From an uncultured Clostridia bacterium (GTDB lineage Bacteria > Bacillota > Clostridia > TANB77 > CAG-508): a DNA stretch of 16,729 nt. Both the position numbers and the translations under genes were made by a program. The notes under the pieces were generated by a model. The model searched no databases. It was not told where the DNA came from and was given only the letters and a program-made list of their open reading frames with translations. Where the stretch lies: assembly GCA_934131055.1 (NCBI GenBank), contig CAKOZB010000015.1, forward strand, positions 1 through 16,729, in the 5' to 3' direction. This document shows, piece after piece, positions 1 to 15,632 of this stretch (positions within the stretch are counted from its first letter, which is position 1; each line of letters opens with the position of its first letter).

Positions 1-106
1 CACCAATTGCTTGCATCTCTGCCTTGTTAGATTCCTTTACCAACCCTGCTATAGCACCTGCTACTGAATTTGGATTTGATTTTGATGAGATTTTTAAAAC
101 TTCCAT
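1..106 (-). CDS. spoVS: Stage V sporulation protein S (SpoVS), 5' part only; continues past the left edge
   Basis: Only the first 35 codons are in the window. They read MEVLKISSKSNPNSVAGAIA and then GLVKESNKAEMQAIG, which matches the highly conserved N-terminus of SpoVS, a small (about 86-residue) Alba-like, probably nucleic-acid-binding protein. In Bacillus it is needed for correct septation and coat assembly at stage V of sporulation. The ATG at 106 is preceded by a strong AGGAGG at 112-117 and by a SigA-like promoter at 156-184. In Bacillus subtilis spoVS also directly follows ymdB, as it does here, so the order is conserved. The family also occurs in some non-sporulating bacteria, so it suggests but does not prove a spore former. 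Confidence 0.93.
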   Translation of the reverse strand, partial: MEVLKISSKSNPNSVAGAIAGLVKESNKAEMQAIG

Positions 107-155
107 TTTTATCCTCCTAATATTTTATTTTTTTGTATGTTTAAGTACAGTTATA

Positions 156-184
156 TTTATATAATATTTCGGAGTAATTGTCTA
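156..184 (-). promoter_or_regulatory. Probable SigA-type promoter of spoVS
   Basis: On the minus strand a TAGACA (179-184) is followed after exactly 17 bases by TATAAA (156-161), upstream of the spoVS ribosome binding site. The -35 is one base from TTGACA and the -10 one base from TATAAT. In B. subtilis spoVS is read from a SigH promoter; this element looks like SigA instead, but the region is so AT-rich that chance matches are possible. No terminator hairpin separates it from ymdB. Confidence 0.5.
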
Positions 185-241
185 TATATTTTTGGTATTT
201 TTTTACAGTTTTCATCGTGCTATTTTTGCATTTTTCGTCAT

Positions 242-1015
242 TTATTTTCTTACAACTCTTATAATTTTCTCAACTCGACAGCTTTCGTCATTTATCTCGA
301 AAATGCAACCATTTAGCATGCAGTTACCATCTGCCAATTTGTATTTTTCTGGAAGCGTTGTTTCAAATCTCTTTAAAGAAGCCGATACATCCATTCCTAT
401 TACAGATTTCTTTGGTCCAGTCATTCCTATATCTGTTATGTATCCTGTTCCTTTTTCTAATATTGTTTCATCTGCAGTTTGAACATGTGTATGTGTTCCG
501 AACATAGCCGTTATTCTGCCATCTAAATAGTATCCCATTGCAATTTTTTCGGCTGTTGCTTCTGCATGAAAATCCAAAATTATAATATCAGCCTTTCCTT
601 TTACAGCATTTAAAACATCATTCATCTTCAAAAATGGATTCTCAGATAATACATTCATATCTGTTCTACCAATTAAATTTACAACACATATTTTTTTGCC
701 TTTACAATCAAAAATTCCATATCCGTGTCCTGGAACATTTGGTGCATAGTTTGCAGGACGCAAAAGTTTAGGGTCATCAGCAAAAGAGAATATATCTTTT
801 TTGCCCCAAGTATGGTTTCCCATTGTAATTACATCAACTTTCATTTCTTTTAACTCATTAAATATTTTAGTTGTAATTCCCATTCCACCAGCCGAATTTT
901 CTGCATTTACTATTACAAAATCAATCTTTTCTTGTTCTCTTATTTTAGGTAAAGTTTCTTTTAATTTCTTTACTCCATTCTCTCCAACTAAATCTCCAAT
1001 TGCTAAAACTCTCAA
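242..1015 (-). CDS. ymdB: YmdB-type metallophosphoesterase (2',3'-cyclic nucleotide phosphodiesterase)
   Basis: A 257-residue cytosolic protein of the TIGR00282/YmdB family, at full family length. Dimetal phosphoesterase residues are visible in order: GDLVG with D8, NAEN with E39 and N40, GNHTW with N67 and H68, DFHAE with H150, and GTHTHVQT with H175 and H177. B. subtilis YmdB hydrolyses 2',3'-cAMP and acts as a switch between motility and biofilm matrix expression. The start is a TTG at 1015; the reading MRVLAIGDLVGENG fits the family N-terminus, and AAGGA at 1026-1030 is well spaced. It begins 14 bp after the CpsB-type phosphatase gene, so it is probably co-transcribed with the polysaccharide control genes. 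No RNase Y gene (rny), the usual upstream partner, lies next to it. Confidence 0.93.
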   Translation of the reverse strand: MRVLAIGDLVGENGVKKLKETLPKIREQEKIDFVIVNAENSAGGMGITTKIFNELKEMKVDVITMGNHTWGKKDIFSFADDPKLLRPANYAPNVPGHGYGIFDCKGKKICVVNLIGRTDMNVLSENPFLKMNDVLNAVKGKADIIILDFHAEATAEKIAMGYYLDGRITAMFGTHTHVQTADETILEKGTGYITDIGMTGPKKSVIGMDVSASLKRFETTLPEKYKLADGNCMLNGCIFEINDESCRVEKIIRVVRK

Positions 1016-1029
1016 TGTTATTTTCCTTT

Positions 1030-1809
1030 CTATTTTAAACTCATTCTCATTTTATCTGCTAACGTTAATTTAATAGGTTGTGGTTCTTCAACTTCAACTC
1101 TTTCATTCCTAATTACATTCATTGCATTAAAATGAGAAATTTTATCAAACTCACTTTGACCAACAATAGCTTTTATTTTATGTATAGCTGGCTCAATTTT
1201 GGTATATATTGAATTAGGCCTATGCACATCAGATCCTAAAAAATGTACTAAATTATTTTCTAACATTTTTTCAACTATTACCTGTGCTTTCTTCCCATAT
1301 TGCCCTATTATGCTTCCATAATTAGACTGCATTAACACACCTTGATTTGCTAATTGATATATAATTTCCGGCTCTTCTTGTGTAAATGTATACCTTTCTG
1401 GATGTGCAAGAACTGGAACGTAATTTGCAGAAAGAATTGAATACACAAAATCCTCAATATTAATTGGCTTAGCATTCATCGGAAACTCAAATAACACATA
1501 TCTTGAACCATTTATTGTTGAAGCTTTGGCTTCTTTTATTAAGCTTATTATTTTATCAGTAAAATAAATTTCACTTCCTAAATACAAACTAAGTCCAATC
1601 TTTTTTTCCTCTAATCCATATTGAAGACCATTTAGCCAAGCTTTTCTATCAGCTTGGCTTACTTCATAATAATTTTCCATATAATGTGATGTAGATATAA
1701 CTCCATCAAAACCGGTGCTACTTGCTTCTTCTAACATCATCATTGTATCTTGCATATCACGTGCACCATCGTCAATTGTTGGAATTATATGAGAGTGAAA
1801 ATCAATCAT
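1030..1809 (-). CDS. cpsB: CpsB/CapC (YwqE)-family PHP-type protein tyrosine phosphatase
   Basis: A 259-residue cytosolic metal-dependent phosphatase of the PHP superfamily that removes phosphate from the tyrosine cluster of the partner kinase and so tunes polysaccharide synthesis and export. Metal and catalytic residues typical of the family are visible: DFHSHIIPTIDDGA with H5, H7 and D14; SHY with H42; E80; E108 in FEFP; HPERY with H136 and R139; and GSDVHR with D194 and H196. All motifs are intact. The gene lies 75 bp after the kinase gene, in the usual order Wzz-like activator, kinase, phosphatase. The ATG at 1809 has an AAAGGA-like site about 11 bases upstream. The symbol is given at family level. 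Confidence 0.92.
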   Translation of the reverse strand: MIDFHSHIIPTIDDGARDMQDTMMMLEEASSTGFDGVISTSHYMENYYEVSQADRKAWLNGLQYGLEEKKIGLSLYLGSEIYFTDKIISLIKEAKASTINGSRYVLFEFPMNAKPINIEDFVYSILSANYVPVLAHPERYTFTQEEPEIIYQLANQGVLMQSNYGSIIGQYGKKAQVIVEKMLENNLVHFLGSDVHRPNSIYTKIEPAIHKIKAIVGQSEFDKISHFNAMNVIRNERVEVEEPQPIKLTLADKMRMSLK

Positions 1810-1884
1810 AATTTCTCATGTCCTTTTCTAATTATGCAAATTCAATTGAAAACACTTAACTTTAAAATTAAATATTATTCAACT

Positions 1885-2814
1885 TTAATCTCTCTTTGTA
1901 TCATTTAAATTATTTTTTTCTTGTTGTAAATATTCATTTACTTGTCTTAAAATTTCTTGTGTTTTGTCTGGAGCAACGTCTTCGCTATTCTCAGCAACAA
2001 TACGCGTCTTTTCTGTTTCTTCCTTTGCCTGTTCTTTTTCATCTACCTTTCTTTCGTTTTCTTTATCCATAAAATCTTTTTTTGTAGATGAATAACCAGC
2101 ATCGCGTTTTCCCCTTGTTGTTAGTTGAGATCCTCCATAATAATATGCTTTTTCATATCTTTTTGCATCAATCGGAACTTTATTTAAAACAACACCTGCT
2201 ATTCTTCCACCAACATTCTTTATGCTTTTAATTGTTTTTTGCAAATTTGCTTTTTTAGTAAACTTGTGTGCAGTTACAACAATAGTAGAATCAACAATTC
2301 TAGATAAAATTACAGCATCTGTTACAAGTTCACATGGTGGAGCATCTACTATTATTATGTCACATTGTGACGAAAGTTTATCCAATAGTCTTTGCATTTG
2401 TGGTGTTATAAGAAGTTCTGATGGATTTGGTGGTACATTTCCTGCAGAAATAACATATAATCCTTCAATTTCAGTCCTCTGCACATACTTTTCCATGTCA
2501 GATAATTCTGCATTTTTATCATTTTCTGCTAAGTAATTAGCAAGCCCTGGTCTAGGTGATACCCCAAATATCGAATATTGTCTTGCTTTTCTCATATCTG
2601 CATCTATCAAAATAACTTGTTTTCCTGCTTGTGCAAACGTTACTGCTAAATTAGCTGCAACCCAACTCTTGCCTTCACCTGGTAATGTTGATGTTATAAG
2701 TATAGATTTTAGCCTTTTATTAACATTCATAAATTGTATATTTGTTCTCAAAGTTCTAAAAGTTTCTGATATAGGAGACTTTGGATTTCTAAAAGTTATT
2801 AACTCTTTTCTCAT
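1885..2814 (-). CDS. cpsD: CpsD-type bacterial tyrosine kinase (BY-kinase) with an extended charged tail
   Basis: A 309-residue soluble BY-kinase. An N-terminal E17-x2-R20-x2-RTNI motif, used for ring assembly in this family, precedes Walker A (STLPGEGKS, 42-50), Walker A' (VILIDADMR, 67-75) and Walker B (IIIVDAPP, 153-160). It autophosphorylates C-terminal tyrosines when stimulated by the membrane activator encoded just upstream. Its ATG overlaps that gene's stop codon by one base (TAATG), implying translational coupling. The tyrosine cluster (RYEKAYYYGG, Y220 and Y224-226, plus Y241) is not at the extreme C-terminus as is usual. It is followed by roughly 80 residues rich in Lys, Glu and Asp. 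Family assignment is firm; the role of the tail is unknown. Confidence 0.93.
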   Translation of the reverse strand: MRKELITFRNPKSPISETFRTLRTNIQFMNVNKRLKSILITSTLPGEGKSWVAANLAVTFAQAGKQVILIDADMRKARQYSIFGVSPRPGLANYLAENDKNAELSDMEKYVQRTEIEGLYVISAGNVPPNPSELLITPQMQRLLDKLSSQCDIIIVDAPPCELVTDAVILSRIVDSTIVVTAHKFTKKANLQKTIKSIKNVGGRIAGVVLNKVPIDAKRYEKAYYYGGSQLTTRGKRDAGYSSTKKDFMDKENERKVDEKEQAKEETEKTRIVAENSEDVAPDKTQEILRQVNEYLQQEKNNLNDTKRD

Positions 2815-3512
2815 TATTTTCTACCTCCCTTTTTGCTTTCAGAATTATCAAAAGGTATTGAAGCAAGAACAGGTACTCTACAAGTCTTTTCTATATCTTC
2901 AGTTGTTTTAACAGTTGTATCAAGCATATTATCTAATAAGACATATATTACAGAAACAACAATACCTATACATGCAAATATAAGTACATCTTTAGTATGA
3001 TTTATATTTGATGGAGTGTCATTTTTTTCAGCAGTATCAACTACGTGCACGTTATCTATATTATAAATTTCTTTTACTTGTTCTGAGAATACATTTGCAA
3101 CTTCGTTTGCAATTTTTGCAGCAATTTCTGGATTTCCATTAGTTACAGAAATTTTAATAACCTCTGAATCTGACACAACTTTTACAGTAATACTATTTTT
3201 AAGGGCCTGGTCAGATATATCAAGTCCAAGATTATTAATAACCTTTCTAACAACTTTATCACTAGTTGCAATTTCTCTGTAAGTAGAAATAAGTTTTGAG
3301 TTTAAATTTACATCTGTTGCTGTTATTGATGTTGGCAATGTTGAATCCTTTCCTGCTGCCAAAACAAGTGTTGTTGATGATGTATATTTTGGTGTAACAA
3401 AACCTATTGTGTATGCAATTCCCATTACTATAAATATTAAAACAATTAATATTATTTGTACTTTTCTGTGCCAAAACAAAGAAATCATTTGGCTTAAATC
3501 TAGCTCTTCCAT
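2814..3512 (-). CDS. cpsC: Wzz/CpsC-type chain-length regulator and BY-kinase activator
   Basis: A 232-residue membrane protein of the polysaccharide co-polymerase (Wzz, CpsC/CapA/YwqC) type. It has a short cytosolic N-terminus (LDLSQMISLFWHRK), a first membrane span at about 19-39, a roughly 135-residue outer domain beginning PKYTSSTTLVLA, and a second span at about 175-193. The cytosolic tail ends CRVPVLASIPFDNSE, matching the conserved PVLxSIP segment that activates the partner kinase. It should set polysaccharide length together with the EpsG-type polymerase and switch on the kinase encoded next. The ATG at 3512 has AAGGAG at 3518-3523, and a near-consensus promoter lies at 3567-3595. The symbol is a family-level name. 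Confidence 0.9.
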   Translation of the reverse strand: MEELDLSQMISLFWHRKVQIILIVLIFIVMGIAYTIGFVTPKYTSSTTLVLAAGKDSTLPTSITATDVNLNSKLISTYREIATSDKVVRKVINNLGLDISDQALKNSITVKVVSDSEVIKISVTNGNPEIAAKIANEVANVFSEQVKEIYNIDNVHVVDTAEKNDTPSNINHTKDVLIFACIGIVVSVIYVLLDNMLDTTVKTTEDIEKTCRVPVLASIPFDNSESKKGGRK

Positions 3513-3566
3513 ATATACTCCTTTTTCCTTTTTTGTTTTTTCTTTTGAATTAATTCTGTCTAAAAT

Positions 3567-3595
3567 ATTATATAAAAAATAACGAATAGTTTCAA
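3567..3595 (-). promoter_or_regulatory. Strong SigA-type promoter of the cpsC-cpsD-cpsB(-ymdB) unit
   Basis: On the minus strand TTGAAA (3590-3595) is followed after exactly 17 bases by a perfect TATAAT (3567-3572). Transcription should start near 3560, about 50 bases before the start codon. The -35 box lies inside a tandem 9-base repeat (3584-3601) that could be a regulator site. Only 12 bases separate this -35 from the stop codon of the upstream gene, so read-through from the sortase unit may add to its output. Confidence 0.75.
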
Positions 3596-3601
3596 TAGTT
3601 T
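3584..3601 (-). repeat. Tandem 9-base direct repeat over the -35 box of the cpsC promoter
   Basis: On the minus strand two adjacent 9-mers, AAACTATTG and AAACTATTC, differ at only the last base and cover the -35 hexamer. A repeat here could be an operator, because a bound protein would block or recruit polymerase. It is short and AT-rich, so chance is a real alternative. Confidence 0.35.
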
Positions 3602-3607
3602 TTCTAC

Positions 3608-4441
3608 TTATTTTGCAATATTTTTACTCTTGTTACTGCAAAGTATAGAAAATAACAATCCTAATACTGTCCCAATTGCAGTTGAAGTATATAAAACCCT
3701 ATAAAATTCTTTTACAAAAATTTGAACTATTACAGATATATTTTCATTTAAAACAGTTAAACTTTGTATTCCTAAAAAATGTTTTTCAAGTATTATTCCT
3801 AATATACTTAATCCTGCAATAGTAAACGCTATTATAGCAATCAATTTTAAAACATTTCTTATATTCTTTATATTTAGTGTAATTAATGCGACTATGTTTA
3901 CAATTAATAGAATCACAACTATTATAAATATTTTAGGTATTATATTTTTTACTTTCCCAGTAATACTTGAAACTGTCTTAACAATTGAATTCGAATACGA
4001 AACTGAATTTGAGTATGAGTTAATTATTGCATTTTCAAAATTTTGTATTTGATTCTCAGTAGTCTTATTTACCAAAACCTTATTATCTTTAATATATTTT
4101 CTTATATTATTATCTAATTTTTCTCTTATAGTACTTGTATCAATTTTAAATTCTTCATTATTCAATATTGCATGAACTATAGAATTTGTATCTTCTTTTA
4201 CTTTATCTAAATCATATATTTCTTCAAAAACACTGCTATCCATACCAGATTGCATTATATAATTTTCAAAACCGTCATTTACAGTATTTTCCAGCTTTTC
4301 ATAATAATTATTTTGTTCCATTTGCATTTTCCAATAATCCTCATTTAGGACTTTATTTTGTAAAAAAGAAACAGCCACAATTGCTATAATTAATGCAACC
4401 ATTATAAATGATAGTATGTACGATATTATATTTTTTACCAT
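3608..4441 (-). CDS. Unknown four-pass membrane protein translationally coupled to the sortase
   Basis: A 277-residue protein with no enzymatic motif that I recognise. Predicted layout: a first span at about 6-27, a mainly hydrophilic, probably external domain at about 28-167 (rich in Asn, Glu, Lys and Tyr, beginning NEDYWKMQMEQNNYYEKLEN and likely helical), then three spans at about 168-190, 196-217 and 248-268. Its ATG overlaps the sortase stop codon by one base (TAATG), so the two are probably made together. I recall similar uncharacterised proteins near class D sortases in Clostridia, but that is memory rather than a search. Plausible roles are a sortase partner, a chaperone for its substrates or a sensor of surface assembly; none is shown by the sequence. 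Confidence 0.8.
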   Translation of the reverse strand: MVKNIISYILSFIMVALIIAIVAVSFLQNKVLNEDYWKMQMEQNNYYEKLENTVNDGFENYIMQSGMDSSVFEEIYDLDKVKEDTNSIVHAILNNEEFKIDTSTIREKLDNNIRKYIKDNKVLVNKTTENQIQNFENAIINSYSNSVSYSNSIVKTVSSITGKVKNIIPKIFIIVVILLIVNIVALITLNIKNIRNVLKLIAIIAFTIAGLSILGIILEKHFLGIQSLTVLNENISVIVQIFVKEFYRVLYTSTAIGTVLGLLFSILCSNKSKNIAK

Positions 4442-5073
4442 TAAAATATGTCTCCTTCTATTAATTTTGAATATGTTACAAATCTATGAGTCGCATGCCC
4501 TATACTGTTTGAAGGATAACATGTATATAGCATTAGTATTTCTTCATCTTCCTGTAGATATACAGCACTTGTGTCTGATTGGTCAACTATTTTTGTTTCA
4601 TAAATTTCATATGTAAAATTACCATAATCAGTTTTTATTTTTATTTTATCTCCTACATTAACCGTATACAAATACTTTAAAAATCCACCAGTATCATGTG
4701 CCATGCAAATTATAGAGCCACCTTCACCTGGAAAATAAGACACAGATTGTCCTACACCTTTTCTTAATATTGAAAGAGAATCTCCATAATAAAGTCCCAA
4801 TTTTACATTAATAGAATCAATAGATAAAGTTCCATACTTTTCCCCCCATGCTGGGTAATGAGTCAAATTTTTATTTTCTAAGTCAATCTTAATAGCTTCA
4901 CTCTCTGTATTATTGTTCTTATCGCTTACTGACACCAAATTAATTAGTGCAATTGCCTGCATAAGCTGGTCGCCAATAGTAAATCTAATGGTAACACATA
5001 TAATAACAATAAATATAAAAGCAACTATTATATTATTAATAGTTGCTCCTAATATATTCTTTATTTTTTTCAT
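4441..5073 (-). CDS. Sortase, class D-like
   Basis: A 210-residue membrane-anchored transpeptidase with one N-terminal span (about 12-32) and an external catalytic domain. The triad is visible: H126 in ICMAHDTGG, C185 in LMLYTCYPSN and R197 in THRFVTY. The TCYP signature around the cysteine and the short domain (GTLSIDSINVKLGLYYGD, then a PGEGG turn) fit class D, although histidine usually sits in a GH context and here is AHD. It should cleave LPxTG-like signals and join proteins to the wall. Likely substrates are the adjacent LVQTG protein and the IPQTG cohesin protein. It starts one base after the stop codon of the LVQTG gene, and its own stop overlaps the next start. Confidence 0.88.
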   Translation of the reverse strand: MKKIKNILGATINNIIVAFIFIVIICVTIRFTIGDQLMQAIALINLVSVSDKNNNTESEAIKIDLENKNLTHYPAWGEKYGTLSIDSINVKLGLYYGDSLSILRKGVGQSVSYFPGEGGSIICMAHDTGGFLKYLYTVNVGDKIKIKTDYGNFTYEIYETKIVDQSDTSAVYLQEDEEILMLYTCYPSNSIGHATHRFVTYSKLIEGDIF

Positions 5074-5074
5074 A

Positions 5075-5623
5075 TTATTTTGATGTTACTTTTTTTGCAA
5101 CTAGTACAGCAACGGCAATTAATGCTATTCCAGAAACTACTATATATGGAACATATGATGTTCCTGTTTGTACTAAGTTTGTACTTTGTCCAACTTTTGC
5201 TTCAATTAAAGTTGTTCCGTTTGCATCTATTATTTGAAGTGTGTTGTCAGCAGAAATGTAGTTAATTTTAACATTTGTAGCTGCTTCAATTTTATCTATA
5301 TTTGCACTTATTTTGTTTATAGCATCTGAAGAAAATTTAGATACATCTACTGTATTTTGGCTTTCAACTGTTTTTACTATTTCAGCAACATTTGTTTTAA
5401 CAACAGATACTTGCTCATCTGTTAATTCATGTGAGTTTAAGTATTGTTTTAAAACTAGTAATTGGCTTTCATTTGCTTTGTATGTTTTGCCATCTACTGT
5501 TACTGATACACCTTCCATATAAGAATATAAATCATCATTTGCTGCAGCATTTACTACTGTTGTTAATGCTACTAATACCATTGCTATTAAAGCAACTATT
5601 AACATTGTTTTGTTAAGTTTCAT
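5075..5623 (-). CDS. Small secreted surface protein with a noncanonical LVQTG sorting signal
   Basis: A 182-residue protein with a signal peptide (about 1-27, cleavage near VNA-AA) and a C-terminal wall-sorting signal: LVQTG at 150-154, a hydrophobic span at about 158-175, and the basic tail KKVTSK. The mature part is about 120 residues. It starts DDLYSYMEGVSVTVDGKTY, continues with helices that look paired (ESQLLVLKQYLNSHELTDEQ, then a repeat-like segment around residues 93-115), and ends in a short beta-rich stretch (YISADNTLQIIDANGTTLIE). There is no known catalytic motif. The valine in place of proline in LPxTG is unusual, and the gene lies directly upstream of the sortase. A perfect AGGAGG (5632-5637) and a strong promoter suggest high expression. 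I recall similar small proteins next to class D sortases in Clostridia. Confidence 0.82.
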   Translation of the reverse strand: MKLNKTMLIVALIAMVLVALTTVVNAAANDDLYSYMEGVSVTVDGKTYKANESQLLVLKQYLNSHELTDEQVSVVKTNVAEIVKTVESQNTVDVSKFSSDAINKISANIDKIEAATNVKINYISADNTLQIIDANGTTLIEAKVGQSTNLVQTGTSYVPYIVVSGIALIAVAVLVAKKVTSK

Positions 5624-5652
5624 TTTAAATTCCTCCTAAATTATTTTTCTAT

Positions 5653-5681
5653 ACTATATCATTAAATAAAATAAATTTCAA
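5653..5681 (-). promoter_or_regulatory. SigA-type promoter of the small surface protein/sortase unit
   Basis: On the minus strand TTGAAA (5676-5681) is followed after exactly 17 bases by TATAGT (5653-5658), one base from TATAAT. Transcription would start near 5646, shortly before the AGGAGG at 5632-5637. It lies in the 76-bp gap after the cohesin gene, where no terminator hairpin is visible, so the sortase unit can probably be read both from here and from the LRR promoter. Confidence 0.68.
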
Positions 5682-5699
5682 CATTTTTTGATAATTTTT

Positions 5700-6527
5700 T
5701 TATTTAATTTGTATTGAACGATATCTTATATAACATATAATTCCAATTATTCCTATAATCACTATAGCTACTGGAATAGAAAATTCTCCTGTTTGTGGGA
5801 TTTTACTTATAGCCGTTGAACTATCAGCCTTTTCTTTATCGACTGGCGTCACAATAATTGTGTTTTCTTTCTTCTCATTGTTAGAATTGTTTTTGTCATC
5901 TGTATTGCTTGGTCTTTTATTATCATTTTTATTATTATTATCATTTTTATTATTGTTATCATTTCCATTATTTTTTTCATCATTTTTATTGTCGTTTTTG
6001 TTATCATCTGTTTCATCTTTATTATTGTCATTATTTCCAGAATTATTACCACTATTATCTTCTGTATTTTGTTCAATTGAAAATGTAATTGTTTTATTTA
6101 ACATTATTGTAGACTCGCCATCAGAAAAAGTCAAATTTGTTATAACAACATCCGCTGTATTAGCAGTTACTCCTTCTTTCACTTTCAATACTATTGTTGC
6201 AACATTTCCCGCTTTAGCATTTGTAGTAGTTGAAACGAATTTTCCTGTTTGAGCCTCGTATGAAACCGCCTCCCAATTTTCAGCTTGTTTAATTGTTACA
6301 CTTTCAAAAATATTGCTATCATATTCAATTTTCCCTTCATAACCAAGAGTTCCATCTCCATTGTATGAATCTAAATTCACTTGTATTTCTATTTTTTTTG
6401 TATTTTTACTAATTTTTGTACTATTACAAACAATTCCGACAGAACACGACAAACTATCAGCATAGCTTATTATTGCAGAACTCAAAATTAGAATAATACT
6501 AAAAAAACAAATTAATAATTTTTTCAT
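5700..6527 (-). CDS. Wall-anchored cohesin-domain protein (IPQTG sorting signal)
   Basis: A 275-residue secreted protein. A signal peptide (about 1-23, cleavage after SYA) is followed by a cohesin-like beta-sandwich (about 25-152) with the family's typical segments: YEGKIEYDSNIFESVTI, a glycine-flanked TGKFVSTTTNAKAGNVATIV strand pair, and ITNLTFSDGEST. Next comes an Asn/Asp/Lys linker (about 154-222) holding tandem KNDNNN units. The IPQTG sorting signal is at 243-247, followed by a hydrophobic span (about 250-266) and the basic tail RYRSIQIK. Cohesins bind dockerins, and the gene 14 bp upstream encodes a dockerin. The sortase lies in the next unit. Inference: this is the wall-fixed receptor for the LRR-dockerin protein. 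The cohesin call rests on the motif pattern, not on a search. Confidence 0.84.
   Translation of the reverse strand: MKKLLICFFSIILILSSAIISYADSLSCSVGIVCNSTKISKNTKKIEIQVNLDSYNGDGTLGYEGKIEYDSNIFESVTIKQAENWEAVSYEAQTGKFVSTTTNAKAGNVATIVLKVKEGVTANTADVVITNLTFSDGESTIMLNKTITFSIEQNTEDNSGNNSGNNDNNKDETDDNKNDNKNDEKNNGNDNNNKNDNNNKNDNKRPSNTDDKNNSNNEKKENTIIVTPVDKEKADSSTAISKIPQTGEFSIPVAIVIIGIIGIICYIRYRSIQIK
5862..6068 (-). repeat. Low-complexity Asn/Asp/Lys linker coding region with short tandem repeats
   Basis: This stretch inside the cohesin gene encodes about 69 residues made almost only of N, D, K, E and S. At 5919-5969 it contains a near-exact 18-base tandem unit encoding KNDNNN. On the plus strand it appears as TTATTATCATTTT-like repeats. 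The linker probably acts as a flexible spacer across the wall. Such runs are prone to slippage, so linker length may vary among strains. Confidence 0.7.
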
Positions 6528-6541
6528 TTTCCTTTTCTCCT

Positions 6542-8200
6542 TTACTTTTGTTGTGTAATTATTTTTACAAATTTCATTATATCCATAATATTTATATATC
6601 CATCTTCATTTAAGTCTGAAGCTAAGAATTGCAACCCACTTAAGTTTGAACTTCCAATTACATGTTTCTTTACTTTCATTAAATCCATAATATTAGTTTT
6701 TCCATCTCCTGATGGATCTGCCTTTACAATTATTTTATAATTTTTTTGATTTATACTTAATATATCTCCTGTTCCAATCAATGTGTTCTTTTCAACTTGC
6801 ATACCATTTCTATAGATATTTACTTGACTAGTATTTAAATTTTGTATAAATTTTTCCATTGTTGTATTTGTTAGAACATTATTTATCTTGTCATCTTTTA
6901 CAGTGTAAACATCACTAATCTTTTCTGGTTCTTCTGGTTCAATTATAGGCTCATAGTGTATATGTAATGTTATATAATTATAATCTGAATCTTTCATTGT
7001 AAAAGTCAAATCTTGCTGTTCTAACGCTATTAATTTTACAATCATAAAACTCATGTCATCTGCTATTTCATATGTTATGCCTGGTTCCATTTGAAAGCTC
7101 ACACCATTCACGTAAATCTTACTATCTTTATTTTGCAAATCTTTGAAAATTGAAGTAAATACTATTTTTACATCTTCTGTTTCTAATTTTTCAGTTATAT
7201 TTAAATTATAAATTTGATTATATATCGTAATTTTAAGTAAATTTGTAAGTGTATCTATTGGTGATGTATCTATAATATGGTTTGCATCCAAATACAAATA
7301 TTTAATACTACTATTATTATTAAAAACTGATATATCCTGAATTTCATTTTTATTCAAGTTTAAATTATATAGCTTACTTAAGCCATCAATATTCTCTATA
7401 TTGTCAATTTTATTATTGCTTGCGCTCAAGATTTCTATGTTTTTTAAATTTTGTATTCCATTTAAGCTTGTTAATTCATTATAATTCAAATTCGCTTTTT
7501 TTACTGAATTATTTGTTTTAATGTTTGCTATTGTACTAATCTTATTTCTGCTAATATCTAGACTTTCCAATGACTCAATTTTAGTTATCTCATCACAGTT
7601 AATAATCTTATTTCCAGAGATAGACAAATCTACTAATTTTGTTAATCTAGATATTCCTGTTAGATCTTCAATTTGATTATTATCCAAATACAAATATTTT
7701 AGTTTAGTTAAATATGTTATATCTCCAATTCCATTTATTTTATTATTACTCAAGTTTAAATTTTGTAGGTTACTCAATTTATTTACAAATGCTGTATTCG
7801 ATATATTATTGCTACTTGCACTTACCTTTGTTAAACTTGTAAAATTATTAAGTACACTTAAATCTTCAATTTCATTCCAGTCAAGATAAATCCACTCAAT
7901 ATTTTTATTCTCAAAAAGTTCAAGTCCATTTAAACTTTTTATATTTTTTCCTGCTAGATTTAATTGTTTTCCACTAGCAAGTGAATCAGATGTAATTTTT
8001 TCAATATCTGACATTAAAATATTATTCTTAGTATTATCATTTTCAACTTTTTTTATTATTTCTAAAATAGCATTTTTTAGATTTTCATCTTCAAAGTAAC
8101 TTGTTACGTCTTGGTCTGTATTTGCAAAAGAATTAATGCTAAATAAAAAAACAACAAAAGAAAAAGTTAACAATATTATTCTTTTTATTTTTCTTTGCAT
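6542..8200 (-). CDS. Secreted leucine-rich-repeat protein with a C-terminal dockerin
   Basis: A 552-residue protein. A signal peptide (about 1-26, cleavage near SFA-NT) and a helical cap (about 31-78) are followed by eleven 22-residue internalin/SDS22-type leucine-rich repeats at about 79-320 with strict periodicity (for example LKYLYLDNNQIEDLTGISRL). Next come a beta-rich region (about 325-415), a short Pro/Glu linker (EPIIEPEEPE) and a dockerin-associated domain (about 445-490). A type I-like dockerin follows at about 492-550. Its two calcium-loop repeats, DPSGDGKTNIMD (D495 to D506) and DLNEDGYINIMD (D529 to D540), are both intact. There is no sorting signal or C-terminal span, so surface retention must come from dockerin binding. 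The obvious partner is the cohesin encoded 14 bp downstream. The ligand of the LRR face is unknown. Confidence 0.88.
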   Translation of the reverse strand: MQRKIKRIILLTFSFVVFLFSINSFANTDQDVTSYFEDENLKNAILEIIKKVENDNTKNNILMSDIEKITSDSLASGKQLNLAGKNIKSLNGLELFENKNIEWIYLDWNEIEDLSVLNNFTSLTKVSASSNNISNTAFVNKLSNLQNLNLSNNKINGIGDITYLTKLKYLYLDNNQIEDLTGISRLTKLVDLSISGNKIINCDEITKIESLESLDISRNKISTIANIKTNNSVKKANLNYNELTSLNGIQNLKNIEILSASNNKIDNIENIDGLSKLYNLNLNKNEIQDISVFNNNSSIKYLYLDANHIIDTSPIDTLTNLLKITIYNQIYNLNITEKLETEDVKIVFTSIFKDLQNKDSKIYVNGVSFQMEPGITYEIADDMSFMIVKLIALEQQDLTFTMKDSDYNYITLHIHYEPIIEPEEPEKISDVYTVKDDKINNVLTNTTMEKFIQNLNTSQVNIYRNGMQVEKNTLIGTGDILSINQKNYKIIVKADPSGDGKTNIMDLMKVKKHVIGSSNLSGLQFLASDLNEDGYINIMDIMKFVKIITQQK

Positions 8201-8243
8201 AAGAAAATCCCTTTCTTATATAATTCTACATTATCTCATGTAA

Positions 8244-8272
8244 ATTATATAAAAAAGGGAGAAAAAGGTCAA
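8244..8272 (-). promoter_or_regulatory. Strong SigA-type promoter of the LRR-dockerin/cohesin operon
   Basis: On the minus strand TTGACC (8267-8272) is followed after exactly 17 bases by a perfect TATAAT (8244-8249). Transcription should begin near 8236, giving a leader of about 36 bases with the ribosome site GAAAGGGAT at 8207-8215. Phased direct repeats end at the -35 box. This promoter can separate expression of the surface module from the upstream glycan operon. Confidence 0.78.
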
Positions 8273-8273
8273 T

Positions 8274-8303
8274 AATTGTAACAAAATTGTAATTTAATTG
8301 AAA
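8274..8303 (-). promoter_or_regulatory. Three 11-bp-phased direct repeats upstream of the LRR promoter (putative operator)
   Basis: On the minus strand the 8-mers TTTCAATT (8296-8303), TTACAATT (8285-8292) and TTACAATT (8274-8281) follow one another with exact 11-base spacing and abut the -35 box. Tandem sites at one helical turn are typical of OmpR/PhoB-family response regulators; B. subtilis PhoP boxes share this 11-base period. The regulator is not encoded here, so its identity is open. AT-richness raises the chance of coincidence, but three units in phase beside a promoter are notable. Confidence 0.5.
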
Positions 8304-8308
8304 TACAG

Positions 8309-9310
8309 TTAAATTTTTAAAACACTATAATAAAATTTTAACGTGTATATCATTTTGTTTTTCAACAAAAATATAAATATCTTATCTTTAATATTTCCAT
8401 AGTTATTTTCTTTTATTATTTTATAAAACTCTTTCATATTCACTAATTTATCTATTTCAATTCTTATTATCGATTTATTTTCATTTTTTATACTATTCAA
8501 GTAAGTTTTCATAATTCGAAAATAATTTCTTTTCTGATTTTTTTCAATCATCTCTTGGGGTATATTCCAATTTTCTAATAGCTCTACATGGCACTTATTA
8601 AGTCTTAAATCTAATTCTAATTGATTAGCATATTTTTTATTTCCAAGTGTTTCTCTATTTCTTTGAACATAATGATTAAACGCTTTATTTAATATTAAAA
8701 ATTTTCTAGTTTTTTTTAATACTCTACAATTAAATTCTGTATCTTCTATTCTTGATAAATTCAATTCGAATATAAGGTTATTTTTTTCCAAAAACTGTTT
8801 CCTATATAATTTATTCCATGCATATCCAATTGTTTTTAACAGATTTTCATTTATCTCTATTTGTTTTATATCATCGTCACATTCAACATTAACTTCTTGA
8901 GATAATGTATTTTTATATTCTTTTTTTAATTTTCCATTTGCCTTTTCAAAATCCACGTAAAATCCACAGATAATTACATCTTTACCTTCCGATCTGCTCA
9001 TCATCTCTTCAATCATTGTACTTTCTATATAATCATCTCCATCTATAAAACATAAAAAATCTCCACTTGCATATTTCATTCCTTCATTTCTTGCTGATGA
9101 AAGCCCACCATTTTCTTTATGTATAACTTTAATTCTACTATCCTTTTGGGGATAATTATCTATGATTTTTGAAGAATTATCTGTACTGCCATCATCTATA
9201 ATTATAACTTCTATTTTCTTATAGCTTTGTTTTATTATTGAATCAATACATCGATTAATATATTTTTCAATATTATAAACTGGAACAATTATGCTAACTA
9301 AATTATTCAT
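8309..9310 (-). CDS. Glycosyltransferase family 2 (GT-A fold)
   Basis: A 333-residue cytosolic or membrane-associated sugar transferase. The GT2 nucleotide-sugar fold is clear: VSIIVPVYNIEKYINRCIDS at the N-terminus, IIIDDGSTDNS with D39 and D40, ENGGLSSARNEGMKYASGD, and the metal-binding FIDGDDYIE with D90 and D92. The C-terminal third is Lys/Asn-rich and lacks an obvious membrane domain. It resembles the EpsJ/WcaA type that adds sugars to the lipid-linked repeat unit; donor and acceptor cannot be read from the sequence. It is the last gene of the glycan operon, starting 4 bp after the flippase gene, and ends close to the LRR promoter with no terminator hairpin between. Confidence 0.9.
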   Translation of the reverse strand: MNNLVSIIVPVYNIEKYINRCIDSIIKQSYKKIEVIIIDDGSTDNSSKIIDNYPQKDSRIKVIHKENGGLSSARNEGMKYASGDFLCFIDGDDYIESTMIEEMMSRSEGKDVIICGFYVDFEKANGKLKKEYKNTLSQEVNVECDDDIKQIEINENLLKTIGYAWNKLYRKQFLEKNNLIFELNLSRIEDTEFNCRVLKKTRKFLILNKAFNHYVQRNRETLGNKKYANQLELDLRLNKCHVELLENWNIPQEMIEKNQKRNYFRIMKTYLNSIKNENKSIIRIEIDKLVNMKEFYKIIKENNYGNIKDKIFIFLLKNKMIYTLKFYYSVLKI

Positions 9311-9314
9311 ATTC

Positions 9315-10844
9315 TTATCCTTTCTTAATTTTATTTATAGCAGGAATAAATAAATTCTTTTTTATATATTCATATTCCTCAGTATTTTTATACACAAAAT
9401 AATATAATATTATTGCTATTAACATACAAACTATTCCCTTTATTAAAAAAATAAATATATTAATTTTTTGACATTTTTCAAAAACAATAGTACAAATAAA
9501 TATTATTATAATTGTAATAATAAAATTCTTCCCATTATTTTTGAAATACTCCTTAACATCTTGATGAAAATGCACCTTATATAATATAATTGGCTCATAC
9601 CATATATTAGTCATTACTCTTGCTAATATAGTTGCTAATACGATTCCAAAAACTCCAAATTTTTTTCCCAACACTATAGAAAATATAATATTTAAACCAG
9701 CTGTAATTAAAATTATATATTTAGTATTTTTAAATAAACCAGTAGTTTCTCTATATACCCAAATAGGATTTAATATTCCTTTTATATAAAATAGTAATAC
9801 AATTGCATAAACAATTTCTTTTTCCAATACATATTCATTACCAAAAGCAATCAATATAAAATCATTAAATAAAATAATTAATTCTATTGCACACATTCCA
9901 AACATTATGTTGCAAATCATATTTATTACCTTAAATACTTTAAATTGTCTATCTTTATTCGACTTTGCTACCAAATTTCCTACACTTGCTGTTAAAGCAT
10001 TAAAAACAATTGTAGTAAATGCCTCTATTGCAGATATTACCATCAAATAATTTGAATAATATCCAACCCACACTGTGCCAACAAGTATAGAAATTAGAAT
10101 ATTGTCTGTATTATTAAGAATAACTCCTCCTATTTTATAATACAGCATTGATTTCATATTTTCAAATATTTTTTTTCTTTCATCTTTCGGTAGTTCCGAT
10201 TTTTGTTTTATATAAGGATACATCTTTTCAGTAATTATAGCACCAACAATATTGGTAATAAGTGTACTTAATATTTGAACTATCAAATAAAAAATAAAAT
10301 TTCTAGTTAACAGTAATATTACAATTTGCAATATGCATTGTATAAAATATATAATAAAATTATATATTTTTATTATATATAATTTCTGATCTGCATTCAG
10401 TATAACTGTTCTGCTTGCAAAAATATAAGAGGCTACTGTATTGATTAAAAATAATAGATAATACACATTTATATGTTCTATCTCAACTGAAGTATTTACC
10501 AAATATTTTATAAATGGAACTAATCCTATGCCTATTATAAAAATTGTTATTGCAACAATATTATATATTTTTTTATAAAAATTCATAAGTTCTGAAATTC
10601 TTTTTTGATCATTTTCAGCCAAAGGTTTATACATACTATATATAATAGCACTTCCCATTCCTAGTTCTGCCACAGATAATATTGTTATTACGTTTGAAAA
10701 CAGTCCATTAATTCCAGAATATTCTGCCCCTAAAATTCTCACAAAAACAATTTTTGTTCCAAAATTCAAAATTAGTGTTAATATTTGACTTACTATTCCC
10801 AAAATAATATTTTTAGTTGAATTATATATTCTTGACTCTTTCAT
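9315..10844 (-). CDS. Wzx-type polysaccharide flippase (MOP superfamily)
   Basis: A 509-residue, very hydrophobic membrane protein with about 12 or more spans. The N-terminus, with the segments NIILGIVSQILTLILNFGTK, FVRILGAEYSGINGLFSN and VITILSVAELGMGSAIIYSM, is typical of oligosaccharide flippases of the RfbX/Wzx group. They move lipid-linked repeat units across the membrane for polymerisation outside. This, together with the EpsG-type polymerase and the Wzz-like protein, indicates a Wzx/Wzy-dependent pathway. Its ATG overlaps the pyruvyl transferase stop codon (ATGA, 4 bases), so translation is probably coupled. Confidence 0.92.
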   Translation of the reverse strand: MKESRIYNSTKNIILGIVSQILTLILNFGTKIVFVRILGAEYSGINGLFSNVITILSVAELGMGSAIIYSMYKPLAENDQKRISELMNFYKKIYNIVAITIFIIGIGLVPFIKYLVNTSVEIEHINVYYLLFLINTVASYIFASRTVILNADQKLYIIKIYNFIIYFIQCILQIVILLLTRNFIFYLIVQILSTLITNIVGAIITEKMYPYIKQKSELPKDERKKIFENMKSMLYYKIGGVILNNTDNILISILVGTVWVGYYSNYLMVISAIEAFTTIVFNALTASVGNLVAKSNKDRQFKVFKVINMICNIMFGMCAIELIILFNDFILIAFGNEYVLEKEIVYAIVLLFYIKGILNPIWVYRETTGLFKNTKYIILITAGLNIIFSIVLGKKFGVFGIVLATILARVMTNIWYEPIILYKVHFHQDVKEYFKNNGKNFIITIIIIFICTIVFEKCQKINIFIFLIKGIVCMLIAIILYYFVYKNTEEYEYIKKNLFIPAINKIKKG

Positions 10845-11911
10845 TGCTTACTTTCCCTAATTACCTCTTCAATTTTTTTGTATTTAATATCAAAGTTTAT
10901 AACATTATCTTCAATATTCTCATTTTTCAAAAAATATTCAATATTATTTATTATATCTTCATTCGAAAAATCTTCAGATATTAACTTTATATTTTTGTAA
11001 TTTTTTAACCAAGTGTAATACGTTGATTCAATCTTCCCATTCGAGTTCGGAAAAACAATACATGGAGTTCCAGTTATTACACAAAATATCATTCCGTGTA
11101 ACCTGTCAGTTAAAACAACTTTTGACTTTTTGAAAGTATTCCAAATCTCACTTAGATATTTTTCTCTTTCATTTTCTGTAATACTAACTTTTCCTACATG
11201 TGTGTCTTTAAAATATAACAATTCTTTATATTTCAATGTCAATAAATCTATAATTTCCTGTTTTCTCGTTTTATTAATTTTATTTTCATTGTCATTTCTA
11301 AAGCAAATAGTAATATTCTCTCTTTTAAGTTTTGGTTCTTTTTTATTTAAAGATAAAACAATATCAGGTGCTAAATAAATATTATTTAGCTTAAAGTTTT
11401 TCTTCATTACATTAAATGATTTATTTTCTCTTGCAAATAAAACCAATTTCTTATTTCTTTTATAAACTTCTTTTGCTTTCTTTAATTTTTTATTTCCTAA
11501 CTTATCTTCCGAAAAATCAATAGTTTGTGGGAAACAAACGACTGTATTTTTTTTAAATGTCTTTATAAATGCTTGTCTCATATCTTCTATTTCTTGATAC
11601 AAGTTGCCAAAATTTCCACCACCAATTATTGTAATAACATCATCTTTGCCTATTACCCTTTTTAAAGATTTCATATTTTTATATGTCTCACTAATTGGAA
11701 TCTCTATAACTTCATAATCAGGAAATTTTTCTTCCAAAAATTTCCTTTGTGCATACGTTATTGCCACATCCCCGAGATTTCCATAATCTGCCGCTAATGC
11801 TAAAACTATCTTTTTATCTTTCTTTTTATAATCTTTATAAATATCATTTCTTGATATATATTGAATAATTTTTTGTTTTATTTTTAAAGGTATAAGTCTT
11901 TTAATATTCAT
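10841..11911 (-). CDS. Polysaccharide pyruvyl transferase family protein
   Basis: A 356-residue protein of the polysaccharide pyruvyl transferase family (PF04230), which includes CsaB, EpsO and the WcaK/AmsJ group. Members typically put a ketal pyruvate on a sugar, giving the polymer negative charge. Visible family motifs are ALAADYGNLGDVAITYAQ near the N-terminus, IIGGGNFGNLYQE, and TDRLHGMIFCVITGTPCIVF in the second domain. I chose the ATG at 11911 because GGAGG (11916-11920) lies just upstream and it leaves a 10-bp gap to the previous gene. An in-frame ATG at 11950 would give 369 residues with an odd 29-base overlap. Donor (phosphoenolpyruvate) and target sugar are inferred only from the family. 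Confidence 0.85.
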   Translation of the reverse strand: MNIKRLIPLKIKQKIIQYISRNDIYKDYKKKDKKIVLALAADYGNLGDVAITYAQRKFLEEKFPDYEVIEIPISETYKNMKSLKRVIGKDDVITIIGGGNFGNLYQEIEDMRQAFIKTFKKNTVVCFPQTIDFSEDKLGNKKLKKAKEVYKRNKKLVLFARENKSFNVMKKNFKLNNIYLAPDIVLSLNKKEPKLKRENITICFRNDNENKINKTRKQEIIDLLTLKYKELLYFKDTHVGKVSITENEREKYLSEIWNTFKKSKVVLTDRLHGMIFCVITGTPCIVFPNSNGKIESTYYTWLKNYKNIKLISEDFSNEDIINNIEYFLKNENIEDNVINFDIKYKKIEEVIRESKQ

Positions 11912-11921
11912 TTTTCCTCCA

Positions 11922-13034
11922 TTATAATTTACCATCAAATAACTCTTCAATCTCTTTTATCCTATTTCCCATTTCAAAATTTACTTTTCTTTCAATTGCA
12001 AGTTTTCTATACTCTTCTCTCATCGTACTATCCATAATGATTTTCTTTAGCCCTTCATACAAAGCTTCTTCATTATTCTCTACAATTATTCCATATTTTC
12101 CTTTTTCTAAAATTTCATCCATTCCAGAACACCTTGTCGTTATAACTGGTTTACCAACAACCAAAGCCTCCGTTACAGCCGTACTATAACCTTCAATAAA
12201 AGATGCGCAAATATAAATATCTGCCGCATTTAAGTATTTATATGGATTTTCTTTATATCCTAATAATTTTATGTTTTCTGATAGATTGTTATTTTCTATA
12301 TAATTCTCTATTTTATTTTTTTCAGGTCCGTTTCCCAGAATCCATAAATCACATTTTATTCCCTCTTCAATTAGTCTTTTAAAAATTCGAAGTAATCTGT
12401 CATACCCCTTACTCTTTACCAATCTTGCTATAGTAATAACCACAACATTACTATTATTAATATTTATTTTTTCCTTTGAAAGCTCTTCTATTTTATTAGT
12501 ATCAATTAAATTTCTTATTATCTTTTCATTTTTTAATTCTATATTATTTATGTGATTATGAAAATTCTCTTGTGTAGTGTTTGCGACAAATACAGTTAGA
12601 TCATATTTTTCATATGTATTATACAATTCTTTTTTTGTTCTATATGAAGACAAAAAATCTTTATCCTCTTTCATTTCTGTGTGGACCCAATTTATTAATT
12701 TAGTATTTTCATTTGAGCATCCACTTACGATTCTTGTAGATGGGCCTTCTAAGTAAGATACAATAATATCATATTCTTCCTTTATCATATATTTATATAA
12801 TATTTTTCTTGAAAACAATTTAAAAAAATATATATTCCCCCTAAACATTCTTTTAAAAACATATCTGTATTTAATATTACTATTTAAAAATTGTTTATTA
12901 ACACCATAATCAAATATTGTCTGTACCGTAATATCATATTTTTGAGGATTTAAATTATTTACCAAATTTACTAGCACTTTCTCAGCACCACCACCTCCAA
13001 GTGTTGGTATAAAAAATAATATTCTTTTTTTCAT
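11922..13034 (-). CDS. Glycosyltransferase family 4 (GT-B fold)
   Basis: A 370-residue retaining glycosyltransferase of the GT4 type. The N-terminal acceptor domain has FFIPTLGGGGAEKVLVNL, and the C-terminal donor domain has TIARLVKSKGYDRLLRIFKR and LWILGNGPEKNKIE. The E-x7-E signature is E281 to E289 in FIEGYSTAVTEALVVGKPVI. No membrane span is apparent; such enzymes work at the cytosolic face on lipid-linked intermediates. The EGYSTAVTEA variant occurs in capsule and teichoic acid GT4 enzymes, but the sugar cannot be told. It starts 11 bp after the EpsG-type gene. Confidence 0.92.
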   Translation of the reverse strand: MKKRILFFIPTLGGGGAEKVLVNLVNNLNPQKYDITVQTIFDYGVNKQFLNSNIKYRYVFKRMFRGNIYFFKLFSRKILYKYMIKEEYDIIVSYLEGPSTRIVSGCSNENTKLINWVHTEMKEDKDFLSSYRTKKELYNTYEKYDLTVFVANTTQENFHNHINNIELKNEKIIRNLIDTNKIEELSKEKININNSNVVVITIARLVKSKGYDRLLRIFKRLIEEGIKCDLWILGNGPEKNKIENYIENNNLSENIKLLGYKENPYKYLNAADIYICASFIEGYSTAVTEALVVGKPVITTRCSGMDEILEKGKYGIIVENNEEALYEGLKKIIMDSTMREEYRKLAIERKVNFEMGNRIKEIEELFDGKL

Positions 13035-13045
13035 TCTTTCCTTCC

Positions 13046-14107
13046 TTATTTATTAAAAATAGTTTTATATGGCAACAAGTTCGAGTCTACTGGTAACAAC
13101 ATACACATATAAGCAAAAAAGCAAATTACAACTAACGTACAAAATAAACTTCGCTGTCCTTTTTTCAATCCATTTATAAATTTAGGATATAGTAATAAGT
13201 TATATATTTCAAAATACATACTAAATCTTGAAATATATGTACTTTTTGTAGCTAAACATAGTACCAAAAAATTTATCATCGCAAAATTTATTAATATATT
13301 CATTTTTTTATCATTTTTATAGTTCATATAATACATAAACGACATTATTATCGGTATAAACGCTACCAAAACTCTAAATATATTAACCCCATCATCTTCA
13401 TTATTTATTGTTGTATAACTCTCATACCTTGTTCCACTGGTAATATTCTCAAATTTATCTAATATGCTATCTAATCTCATTGAAACTACTATCAATAAAA
13501 TTATAATTATAAATATTTTTCTACCAAAGGGACGTTCTTTAACAATAAAGTACACTGGTATCATTATAAGTGCAGATATATGTATTGTACTGGCTAAAAT
13601 CACACATATAAAATATTTTATAAAATTATCATTCCATATATATTTTATTGCCCAAAATAAAATAATGCTTGCAATCCATTGTCTCATACCATTAAAAGCA
13701 GAAAAATAAACCATCATTGTAATATATAAATACACACTTAATGTAAATGATTTAGAATATTTTTTTAAACAATATATAACCATACCTACATTGAATACAC
13801 TAATAAAAAATATTACTACTTGTGGTTCCTTACTAATAACTCCTATTATCCATACAAGTATTGAAAAGCCTCTTTCAAATGGAATAAAATCACCATATGA
13901 ATTACTAATTAATATACTAAATGGGAAACTAAGAATTTTATTAAATGTATAATAGTATGTGCCAAAATCAGTTCCAACATTCCATCGTATCCCTGATACA
14001 ATAATAAGCGGAATTGCAACTACTATACTATATAATATATTTGTCTTTTTTTCTGCCAGTGCAGATAATGCAACTACTAATATTAAAACAATTAAATAAA
14101 TACACAT
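13046..14107 (-). CDS. EpsG-family polysaccharide polymerase
   Basis: A 353-residue multi-pass membrane protein of the EpsG family, with about nine or ten spans. The diagnostic segment is GIRWNVGTDFGTYYYTFNKI at about 39-58, matching the R-x2-VGTDY-x2-Y motif of EpsG and related Wzy-like enzymes. A second feature is the FNGMRQWIASIILFWAIKYI segment near the middle. It probably polymerises flipped repeat units on the outer face of the membrane, serving as Wzy. It starts 9 bp after the beta-helix gene, whose last codons contain its AAGGAA ribosome site. Confidence 0.88.
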   Translation of the reverse strand: MCIYLIVLILVVALSALAEKKTNILYSIVVAIPLIIVSGIRWNVGTDFGTYYYTFNKILSFPFSILISNSYGDFIPFERGFSILVWIIGVISKEPQVVIFFISVFNVGMVIYCLKKYSKSFTLSVYLYITMMVYFSAFNGMRQWIASIILFWAIKYIWNDNFIKYFICVILASTIHISALIMIPVYFIVKERPFGRKIFIIIILLIVVSMRLDSILDKFENITSGTRYESYTTINNEDDGVNIFRVLVAFIPIIMSFMYYMNYKNDKKMNILINFAMINFLVLCLATKSTYISRFSMYFEIYNLLLYPKFINGLKKGQRSLFCTLVVICFFAYMCMLLPVDSNLLPYKTIFNK

Positions 14108-14116
14108 ATTTTCATT

Positions 14117-15514: not shown

Positions 15515-15632
15515 AATTTTTTCTCTCCCTTATTACGGTTCAGTTTCTTTTTATGAATTTTAACATATACACAATTAGGTATAATTCCTTTTATTATTGG
15601 TATAACAACATATATATAATAGCCGTAGTTCT
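15511..15632 (-). pseudogene. Out-of-frame C-terminal tail of the GT2 gene
   Basis: In the frame one base ahead of the GT2 gene, a run open from just after a TAG at 15631-15633 to a TGA at 15511-15513 encodes the expected hydrophobic family C-terminus (YYIYVVIPIIKGIIPN, then VKIHKKK). Its stop overlaps the next gene's GTG start by four bases, the spacing seen elsewhere in this operon. This is what an intact ancestral gene would look like. The indel should lie between about 15615 and 15632, where there is a (TA)n tract. Confidence 0.72.

Follow-up and report, generated by a model that had tools for sequence, protein, structure and literature searches.

Described cohesin and dockerin systems

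Cohesins and dockerins have been studied chiefly as parts of cellulosomes, and a survey of non-cellulosomal modules reportedly appeared in 2009. Here we consider two adjacent genes, one for a leucine-rich repeat (LRR) protein with a C-terminal dockerin and one for a one-cohesin protein with a predicted wall-sorting tail, found in 16,729 nucleotides of DNA from an uncultured Clostridia bacterium (GenBank assembly GCA_934131055.1, contig CAKOZB010000015.1, positions 1 to 16,729; this whole stretch is called the window). The closest described arrangement is that of Ruminococcus flavefaciens, where the cellulose-binding protein CttA, which bears a dockerin, is mounted on ScaE, an LPXTG protein with one cohesin, and where the gene order scaC-scaA-scaB-cttA-scaE places cttA beside scaE, according to the sections drawn on here (PMC4081043, PMC5301203, PMC2930009). 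In both cases an enzyme-free dockerin protein is mounted on a single-cohesin protein with a sorting tail encoded by the adjacent gene, although for the window this mounting is predicted. As those sections describe it, CttA-ScaE serves a multi-scaffoldin cellulosome and cellulose binding through an X-module-dockerin dyad, and ScaE has several clients, whereas at the present locus the cargo is an LRR protein, the surroundings are capsule genes rather than a scaffoldin cluster, no cellulosome is seen and several separate pairs occur per genome. A conserved domain precedes the window dockerin.

Dockerin proteins with LRRs are also known from R. flavefaciens FD-1, and they share with that of the window the succession of signal peptide, LRR and dockerin; 28 are tabulated for leucine-rich repeats among the dockerin proteins of that strain in the part of the study used (PMC2930009). 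Their dockerins mostly bound no tested cohesin in the available account, whereas here a cohesin gene adjoins. Use outside cellulosomes is shared with the modules of Clostridium perfringens, which in the consulted portion of one paper stand on glycoside hydrolases and pair with each other (PMC12997984), while the window cohesin is on a small anchor-tailed protein. The mucinolysome of Limousia, described in the same portion, is likewise a gut-bacterial cohesin and dockerin system with an LPxTG anchoring scaffoldin (cSca5), but it has multi-cohesin scaffoldins and dockerin-bearing mucin hydrolases (PMC12997984). According to the portion consulted, that 2026 study detected both modules in 4,333 of 289,232 human-gut genomes, in which it then looked for mucin-degrading enzymes (PMC12997984). 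"Scaffoldins" with a single cohesin, possibly bound to the membrane, are mentioned for a presumably non-cellulolytic genome in the consulted part of a 2024 survey of cellulosome bacteria (PMC11557425). Neither the pair nor the recurrent cassette described below was found reported in the literature searched, which did not include most subscription papers or any preprints. Both parts and principle are therefore already known, whereas no description was found of a dispersed one-plug, one-socket cassette without recognised glycan hydrolases.

The LRR-dockerin and one-cohesin proteins of the window

We consider it probable that the two proteins act as a calcium-dependent plug (the dockerin) and socket (the cohesin), and that they are one cargo version of a recurrent cassette. 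A sortase would fix the cohesin protein to the wall, where a calcium-dependent bond between cohesin and dockerin would retain the exported LRR protein; the LRR face has a putative adhesive or glycan-binding role. Domains, sorting tail, gene order and their conservation come directly from sequence and structure prediction, while secretion, sortase anchoring, binding, calcium dependence and the role of the LRR face are what we infer from them. All genes relevant to the pair lie on the minus strand, and the cohesin gene is 14 nucleotides downstream of the LRR gene (Table 1).

Table 1. Positions of the pair and of the neighbouring features in the window
Feature	Position	Strand	Basis
LRR-dockerin protein, 552 amino acids (aa), proposed displayed cargo	6542..8200	-	Open reading frame (ORF); Pfam LRR_4 and Dockerin_1; model; InlA best PDB match
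LRR solenoid, residues ~79-330	7211..7966	-	Pfam LRR_4/LRR_8 stretches; regular strand pattern in model
Pre-dockerin domain, residues ~430-494	6719..6913	-	Alignment A2; strands and one helix in model
Dockerin, residues 495-542, two calcium-type loops	6575..6718	-	Pfam PF00404; loops
One-cohesin anchor protein, 275 aa, proposed socket	5700..6527	-	ORF; Pfam PF00963
Cohesin domain, residues 25-154	6066..6455	-	
IPQTG sorting motif, residues 243-247	5787..5801	-	Sequence; alignment A1; model; tail scan
182-aa protein, signal-like start and LVQTG-type tail	5075..5623	-	ORF; homologue in L006 only
Sortase, class D-like	4441..5073	-	Pfam PF04203, 68.4 bits, cut-off 26.6
277-aa predicted membrane protein	3608..4441	-	Adjoins sortase also in L006 and L015
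wzz-wze-cpsB, capsule chain-length/kinase/phosphatase-type genes	1030..3512	-	Pfam/NCBIfam; same order in relatives

The original prediction had described a secreted LRR protein with a terminal two-loop dockerin and no anchor, next to a cohesin-like protein with an IPQTG wall signal, and had proposed a profile search, structure prediction of the domains and a survey of neighbours in relatives; each of the three agreed with it. The LRR protein consists of a signal-like N-terminus, the LRR solenoid, an immunoglobulin-like region, the pre-dockerin domain and the C-terminal dockerin, and is predicted to be exported from the cell. Its dockerin exceeds the curated cut-off of Dockerin_1 (28.6 against 22.9 bits) and contains two loops of 12 residues each, DPSGDGKTNIMD and DLNEDGYINIMD, both with an Ile-Met dyad at loop positions 10-11. 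When this dockerin was compared with the PDB, a solved dockerin (6kg9) was matched at E 3.3e-4, the top row being 8x39, named as a serine protease, at E 1.2e-4. Since just ten residues follow the dockerin, the protein has no anchor of its own. Along with the dockerin, the pre-dockerin domain is kept across the LRR-dockerin family (alignment A2). The predicted model (pLDDT 91.3, the predicted local distance difference test) has the internalin InlA as its top structural match, as the proposed internalin-like fold would have it, and the similarity is one of fold only, since internalin models of NCBIfam are not passed (84.4 against 1600 bits for internalin A). Listeria internalins thus share the LRR fold, but InlA, unlike the window protein, carries its own sorting signal.

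The 275-aa protein has a signal-like N-terminus, a single cohesin, a low-complexity Asn/Lys/Asp linker and the IPQTG tail. Its cohesin also passes the curated Pfam threshold (31.4 bits, cut-off 24.1, residues 44-148), and the predicted domain is confident, with pLDDT above 89 in most 10-residue blocks. The best PDB matches of the predicted fold are solved cohesins, the closest being 2jh2 and 2vo8 of C. perfringens, whereas a profile of the whole cohesin alignment found no match when PDB sequences were searched. After IPQTG come a hydrophobic segment (model helix 251-271) and the basic tail RYRSIQIK, the layout of an LPXTG-type substrate (pentapeptide, hydrophobic segment, basic tail), and the position of the motif is conserved in alignment A1. 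On one metagenome contig a near-identical cohesin is fused to a YqfD-like domain (PF06898; protein P0008), which is probably an assembly chimera.

Neighbouring cohesin genes and pair types in relatives

To collect relatives, the LRR-dockerin alignment was used in a pattern-led search of 84,980 species genomes. Of the 16 loci obtained, 15 are in uncultured Clostridia, and one, a weak LRR-only match, is on a Coriobacteriales contig. The 15 relatives are metagenome-assembled genomes of unstated completeness. Adjacency was not counted for L013 and L016, where the contig ends in the LRR gene. At all 14 testable loci (L001-L012, L014 and L015) a cohesin ORF follows the LRR-dockerin gene on the same strand, and the adjacency is therefore beyond chance. 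The dockerin passes Pfam at 13 of the 14, and at L009 the two loops were recognised by eye. Several of the neighbouring cohesins were overlooked by Pfam alone and detected by a hidden Markov model (HMM) derived from alignment A1, with E of at most 8e-19 in the first pass for the best ORF of each locus and no shuffled match. In two genomes the LRR-dockerin gene is interrupted at an identical position, leaving two ORFs (L012:9995-11636 and L014:9995-11636), and one in-frame TAA was met in a matched stretch of the family during the survey of the order presented below.

Each of the small genomes (1.1-1.8 Mb) that carry L001-L015 has 1-4 cohesin and 1-6 dockerin matches of Pfam at E 0.001, besides 4-11 sortases. 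A cohesin on the same strand lies within 2 kb of 22 of the 45 dockerins in these 15 genomes (9 LRR pairs, 3 cases in one ORF and 10 other pairs), where chance would give fewer than one such neighbour by rough arithmetic, there being few cohesins in 1.5 Mb. Several cassettes coexist in a genome, and the divergence of their dockerins and cohesins would keep every plug to its own socket.

This was evaluated in six genomes that hold the LRR pair and a second pair. In all six, the dockerin and the cohesin of the LRR pair are each more similar to LRR-type counterparts in other genomes than to the second type in their own: distances between co-resident types are 0.60-0.79 for dockerins and 0.79-0.87 for cohesins, against 0.00-0.23 and 0.06-0.38, respectively, to the nearest own type in another genome. 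Over 39 pairs, dockerin and cohesin distances are correlated (r 0.85), and within the LRR type the partial correlation after removal of the Wze distance is 0.81 (n=10, permutation p 0.0002). L005, L007 and L010 entered the distance tests by their second tandem cohesin, the other loci by their first.

The loop dyad is the recognition site in cellulosome dockerins. In symmetrical dockerins, residues at the recognition sites are duplicated, as set out in the part of the literature used (PMC5301203). Both loops carry an identical dyad in 22 of the 38 dockerins counted, where shuffling gave 4.8 (maximum of 10,000 shuffles 13), although this count yields no clean probability because the rows are related. 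The total is 38 rather than 39 since L047, a partial match, was omitted, and in five rows of the second type (L037, L039, L042, L050 and L054), where the second loop departs from a regular 12-mer, its dyad was taken by a looser rule. The dyad varies with the type of pair: I-M, I-K, I-T; S-V; A-T.

If the cohesin-like domain and the EF-hand-like tail did not bind each other, they would work separately, for example as a pilin-like or adhesive domain and a calcium-stabilised C-terminal cap. Adhesins or unrelated beta-sandwiches do occupy some of the other rows in the PDB lists; however, the adjacency recurs with unrelated cargos whose sole common part is the dockerin, and dockerin and cohesin diverge in step, so that we give this explanation hardly any credence. 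Sharing of sockets deserves more attention, though we judge it unlikely: cohesin proteins would take any dockerin protein of the cell, the neighbour being one client of several. It would suit the numbers of cohesins and dockerins per genome given above, the 23 of 45 dockerins without a Pfam cohesin within 2 kb, and ScaE of R. flavefaciens, which binds several group-4 dockerins according to the sections available (PMC5301203). On the other hand, co-resident pair types are clearly distinct in distance and in dyad, even if divergence is no proof of different binding.

The private plug and socket, which we prefer, has to be weighed against several observations. Two tandem cohesin ORFs stand at six of the 14 LRR loci (L005, L007, L009, L010, L011 and L015), so that the proposed ratio of one cohesin to one dockerin holds in the window but not at these relatives; in three different genomes the first of the two is a C-terminal half only (L005:12177-12569, L007:5058-5450, L010:1952-2377). 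The neighbouring cohesin passes the Pfam cut-off at only six of the 14 loci, and reaches E 0.001 at nine; the rest rely on the A1-derived HMM, whose hits are partly built in because its seed includes close relatives of some loci (the start of the L004 cohesin is identical to that of P0024, a relative in the seed, over the stretch compared). The anchor profiles PF00746 and TIGR01167 gave no match to the window cohesin protein. The resemblance of each type to its own type is expected of any orthologues, and joint inheritance of neighbours, through relatedness or joint transfer, can yield part of the distance correlation. Private pairing is moreover not universal, since a partner within 2 kb is lacking for those 23 dockerins and for 16 of the 38 Pfam cohesins. 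Finally, the majority of the LRR-protein dockerins of R. flavefaciens bound no cohesin tested, although only the species' own set was tried, as stated in the part of the paper used (PMC5301203).

Other dockerin cargos and the setting of the locus

The original prediction understated its scope, since the pair it described is a single instance of an arrangement seen with many types of cargo: a dockerin-tailed exoprotein followed by a one-cohesin anchor, of which the LRR pair would be one version. We sampled 191 genomes from the order that includes the relative G002, to which the window would also belong judging by its relatives, and found a cohesin at E 0.001 in 142 and a dockerin at E 1e-9 in 146; the LRR-dockerin family is rarer (20 genomes at E 1e-30, mostly partial matches). 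Cohesins also occur outside that order: of 291 genomes sampled across the class, 68 have one at E 1e-9. Among the 150 matches listed per order search, a cohesin lies within 2 kb of at least 17 dockerins, in every case downstream. Twenty regions were fetched because of such neighbours (the 17 and three more). In these regions, genes of dockerin-tailed proteins (mostly 600-2100 aa) stand before genes of one-cohesin proteins (~230-390 aa), of which nearly all are anchor-tailed. The tail rule mis-assigned the motif in L002, which has IPQTG, and in L090, which has no clear motif, and failed in L092 and L103, where LPKTG is present, and in the L095 adaptor. The nine cargos scanned contain NPCBM with F5/8C, LRR_4, BspA-type LRR_5, DUF285 with LRR, Big_2, and a papain-like peptidase with a lectin-like domain. 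The recurrence of this gene pairing with so many other predicted surface proteins suggests a system of display outside cellulosomes.

In genome G013, a capsule locus (L052) has an 887-aa protein with a weak dockerin before an IPQTG cohesin gene and wzz-wze-cpsB. This may suggest that the cargo was swapped and the socket kept, a reading held tentatively because G013 also holds an LRR-family gene on a separate contig (L013). At a second recurrent locus, a cohesin-LPKTG protein and a sortase are encoded together with a dockerin protein, which in the two cases scanned (L047 and L054) has SH3_3 and Big_2 domains, and with a membrane protein that has a cohesin at its N-terminus. For the N-terminal part of the L047 and L054 cargo a glucosaminidase assignment (GH73) was dropped, as Pfam gave it no support. 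Downstream of the dockerin protein, a protein of ~430-450 aa with an N-terminal cohesin-like domain is seen in L037, L038, L039, L041, L042, L045, L047, L050 and L054, with cadherin-like domains in that of L045, the only one scanned.

A reduced or specialised cellulosome, in which the pairs would be remnants or accessories of a multi-enzyme polysaccharide-degrading complex, is the remaining explanation, and a quite improbable one. It would account for the use of the same domains, for NPCBM and F5/8C on some cargo that also has long stretches without Pfam match, and for two kinds of protein found in the survey. Cohesin-plus-dockerin adaptors without anchor are encoded between the genes of dockerin cargos and that of a cohesin anchor (L095:4144-5028, L100:2818-3684), which suggests modules in chains, and one protein of genome G011 (L026:3230-4627) has three divergent cohesin-like repeats, an LPQTG tail and no Pfam family. 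The latter is a small scaffoldin-like exception, for the window protein has a single cohesin and none of the 38 Pfam cohesin matches in the 15 genomes shares an open frame with another, whereas presumed cellulosome genomes of the class (G332, G309 and G467) have at least 8 to 11 cohesins per frame among the matches listed. No glycoside hydrolase family of Pfam was found in the 26 dockerin proteins scanned, a subset of those found that includes three with a dockerin just under the cut-off and some with large parts free of Pfam matches; the enzymes recognised in them were one Amidase_3 and two Peptidase_C1. The placement of the pair outside a cellulosome, as first proposed, agrees with these data.

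Other arrangements were observed in the survey. SH3-rich dockerin proteins (L017:484-3960, L019:7276-11255, L028:6569-10135, L029:2241-6010 and 8157-11909) are followed by proteins with cadherin-like domains and no recognisable cohesin, which are possibly still more divergent sockets. A 2731-aa protein has cohesin and dockerin matches near its N-terminus in one frame (L048:2727-10922, L055:2468-10663); the L048 cohesin scored 50.7 bits in the genome search, yet was absent from the Pfam scan of the whole protein. In L038, L040 and L044 the cohesin gene is upstream rather than downstream of the dockerin protein, whose frame is of ~1,070 aa, and in the scanned L022 protein, of similar length, the dockerin is near the N-terminus.

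Within the window itself, a sortase had been said to follow the cohesin gene, to be class D-like and to belong to the pair. A sortase domain is present downstream, but the gene of the 182-aa protein stands in between. The sortase passes the general sortase model TIGR01076 (64.6 against 39.35 bits), and its best NCBIfam matches are class D and SrtD models, both below cut-off (98.1/165 and 103.4/140 bits), hence only the suffix "-like" is kept. As a dedicated and conserved part of the pair the sortase was rejected, since a homologue is at the locus in only two of the 14 relatives (L006 and L015), L004, L007 and L010 being weak negatives on contigs of 5-7 kb. Positions 3608-5623, comprising the 182-aa protein, the sortase and the 277-aa membrane protein, resemble a separate unit, and homologues of all three are found in L006 and of the latter two in L015. 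The 182-aa protein, without a Pfam family above cut-off, is perhaps a further sortase substrate; nothing in Pfam or NCBIfam exceeded the cut-off for the membrane protein.

The capsule-locus setting, on the contrary, stands: wzz-wze-cpsB lie downstream of the pair, and wzz is downstream at 11 of the 15 Clostridia loci, was not found within the 6.5-7.7 kb present at L009 and L011, and cannot be judged on the short L010 and L013. Upstream of the pair, glycosyltransferase-like, flippase-like and polymerase-like genes were recognised by reading translations, and Pfam found Beta_helix at 14117-15514. A promoter scan was uninformative (45 found against 44.8 expected).

A wider proposal, which we advance with considerable doubt, is that a whole order of small-genome Clostridia might mount its large surface proteins by private dockerin and one-cohesin pairs instead of anchors of their own, that a loop-dyad code (I-M, I-K, S-V, A-T) might separate co-resident pairs, that cargo could be exchanged without touching the anchor, and that cellulosomes might be the repeat-expanded, enzyme-loaded version of this arrangement. 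If the dispersed one-to-one version is true, it would be a general, presumably calcium-dependent route to mount surface proteins, and would offer natural, possibly orthogonal binding pairs for protein engineering. It would also hint at why the dockerins of R. flavefaciens LRR proteins mostly failed to bind, since the partner of each may be a dedicated cohesin, perhaps encoded by a neighbouring gene.

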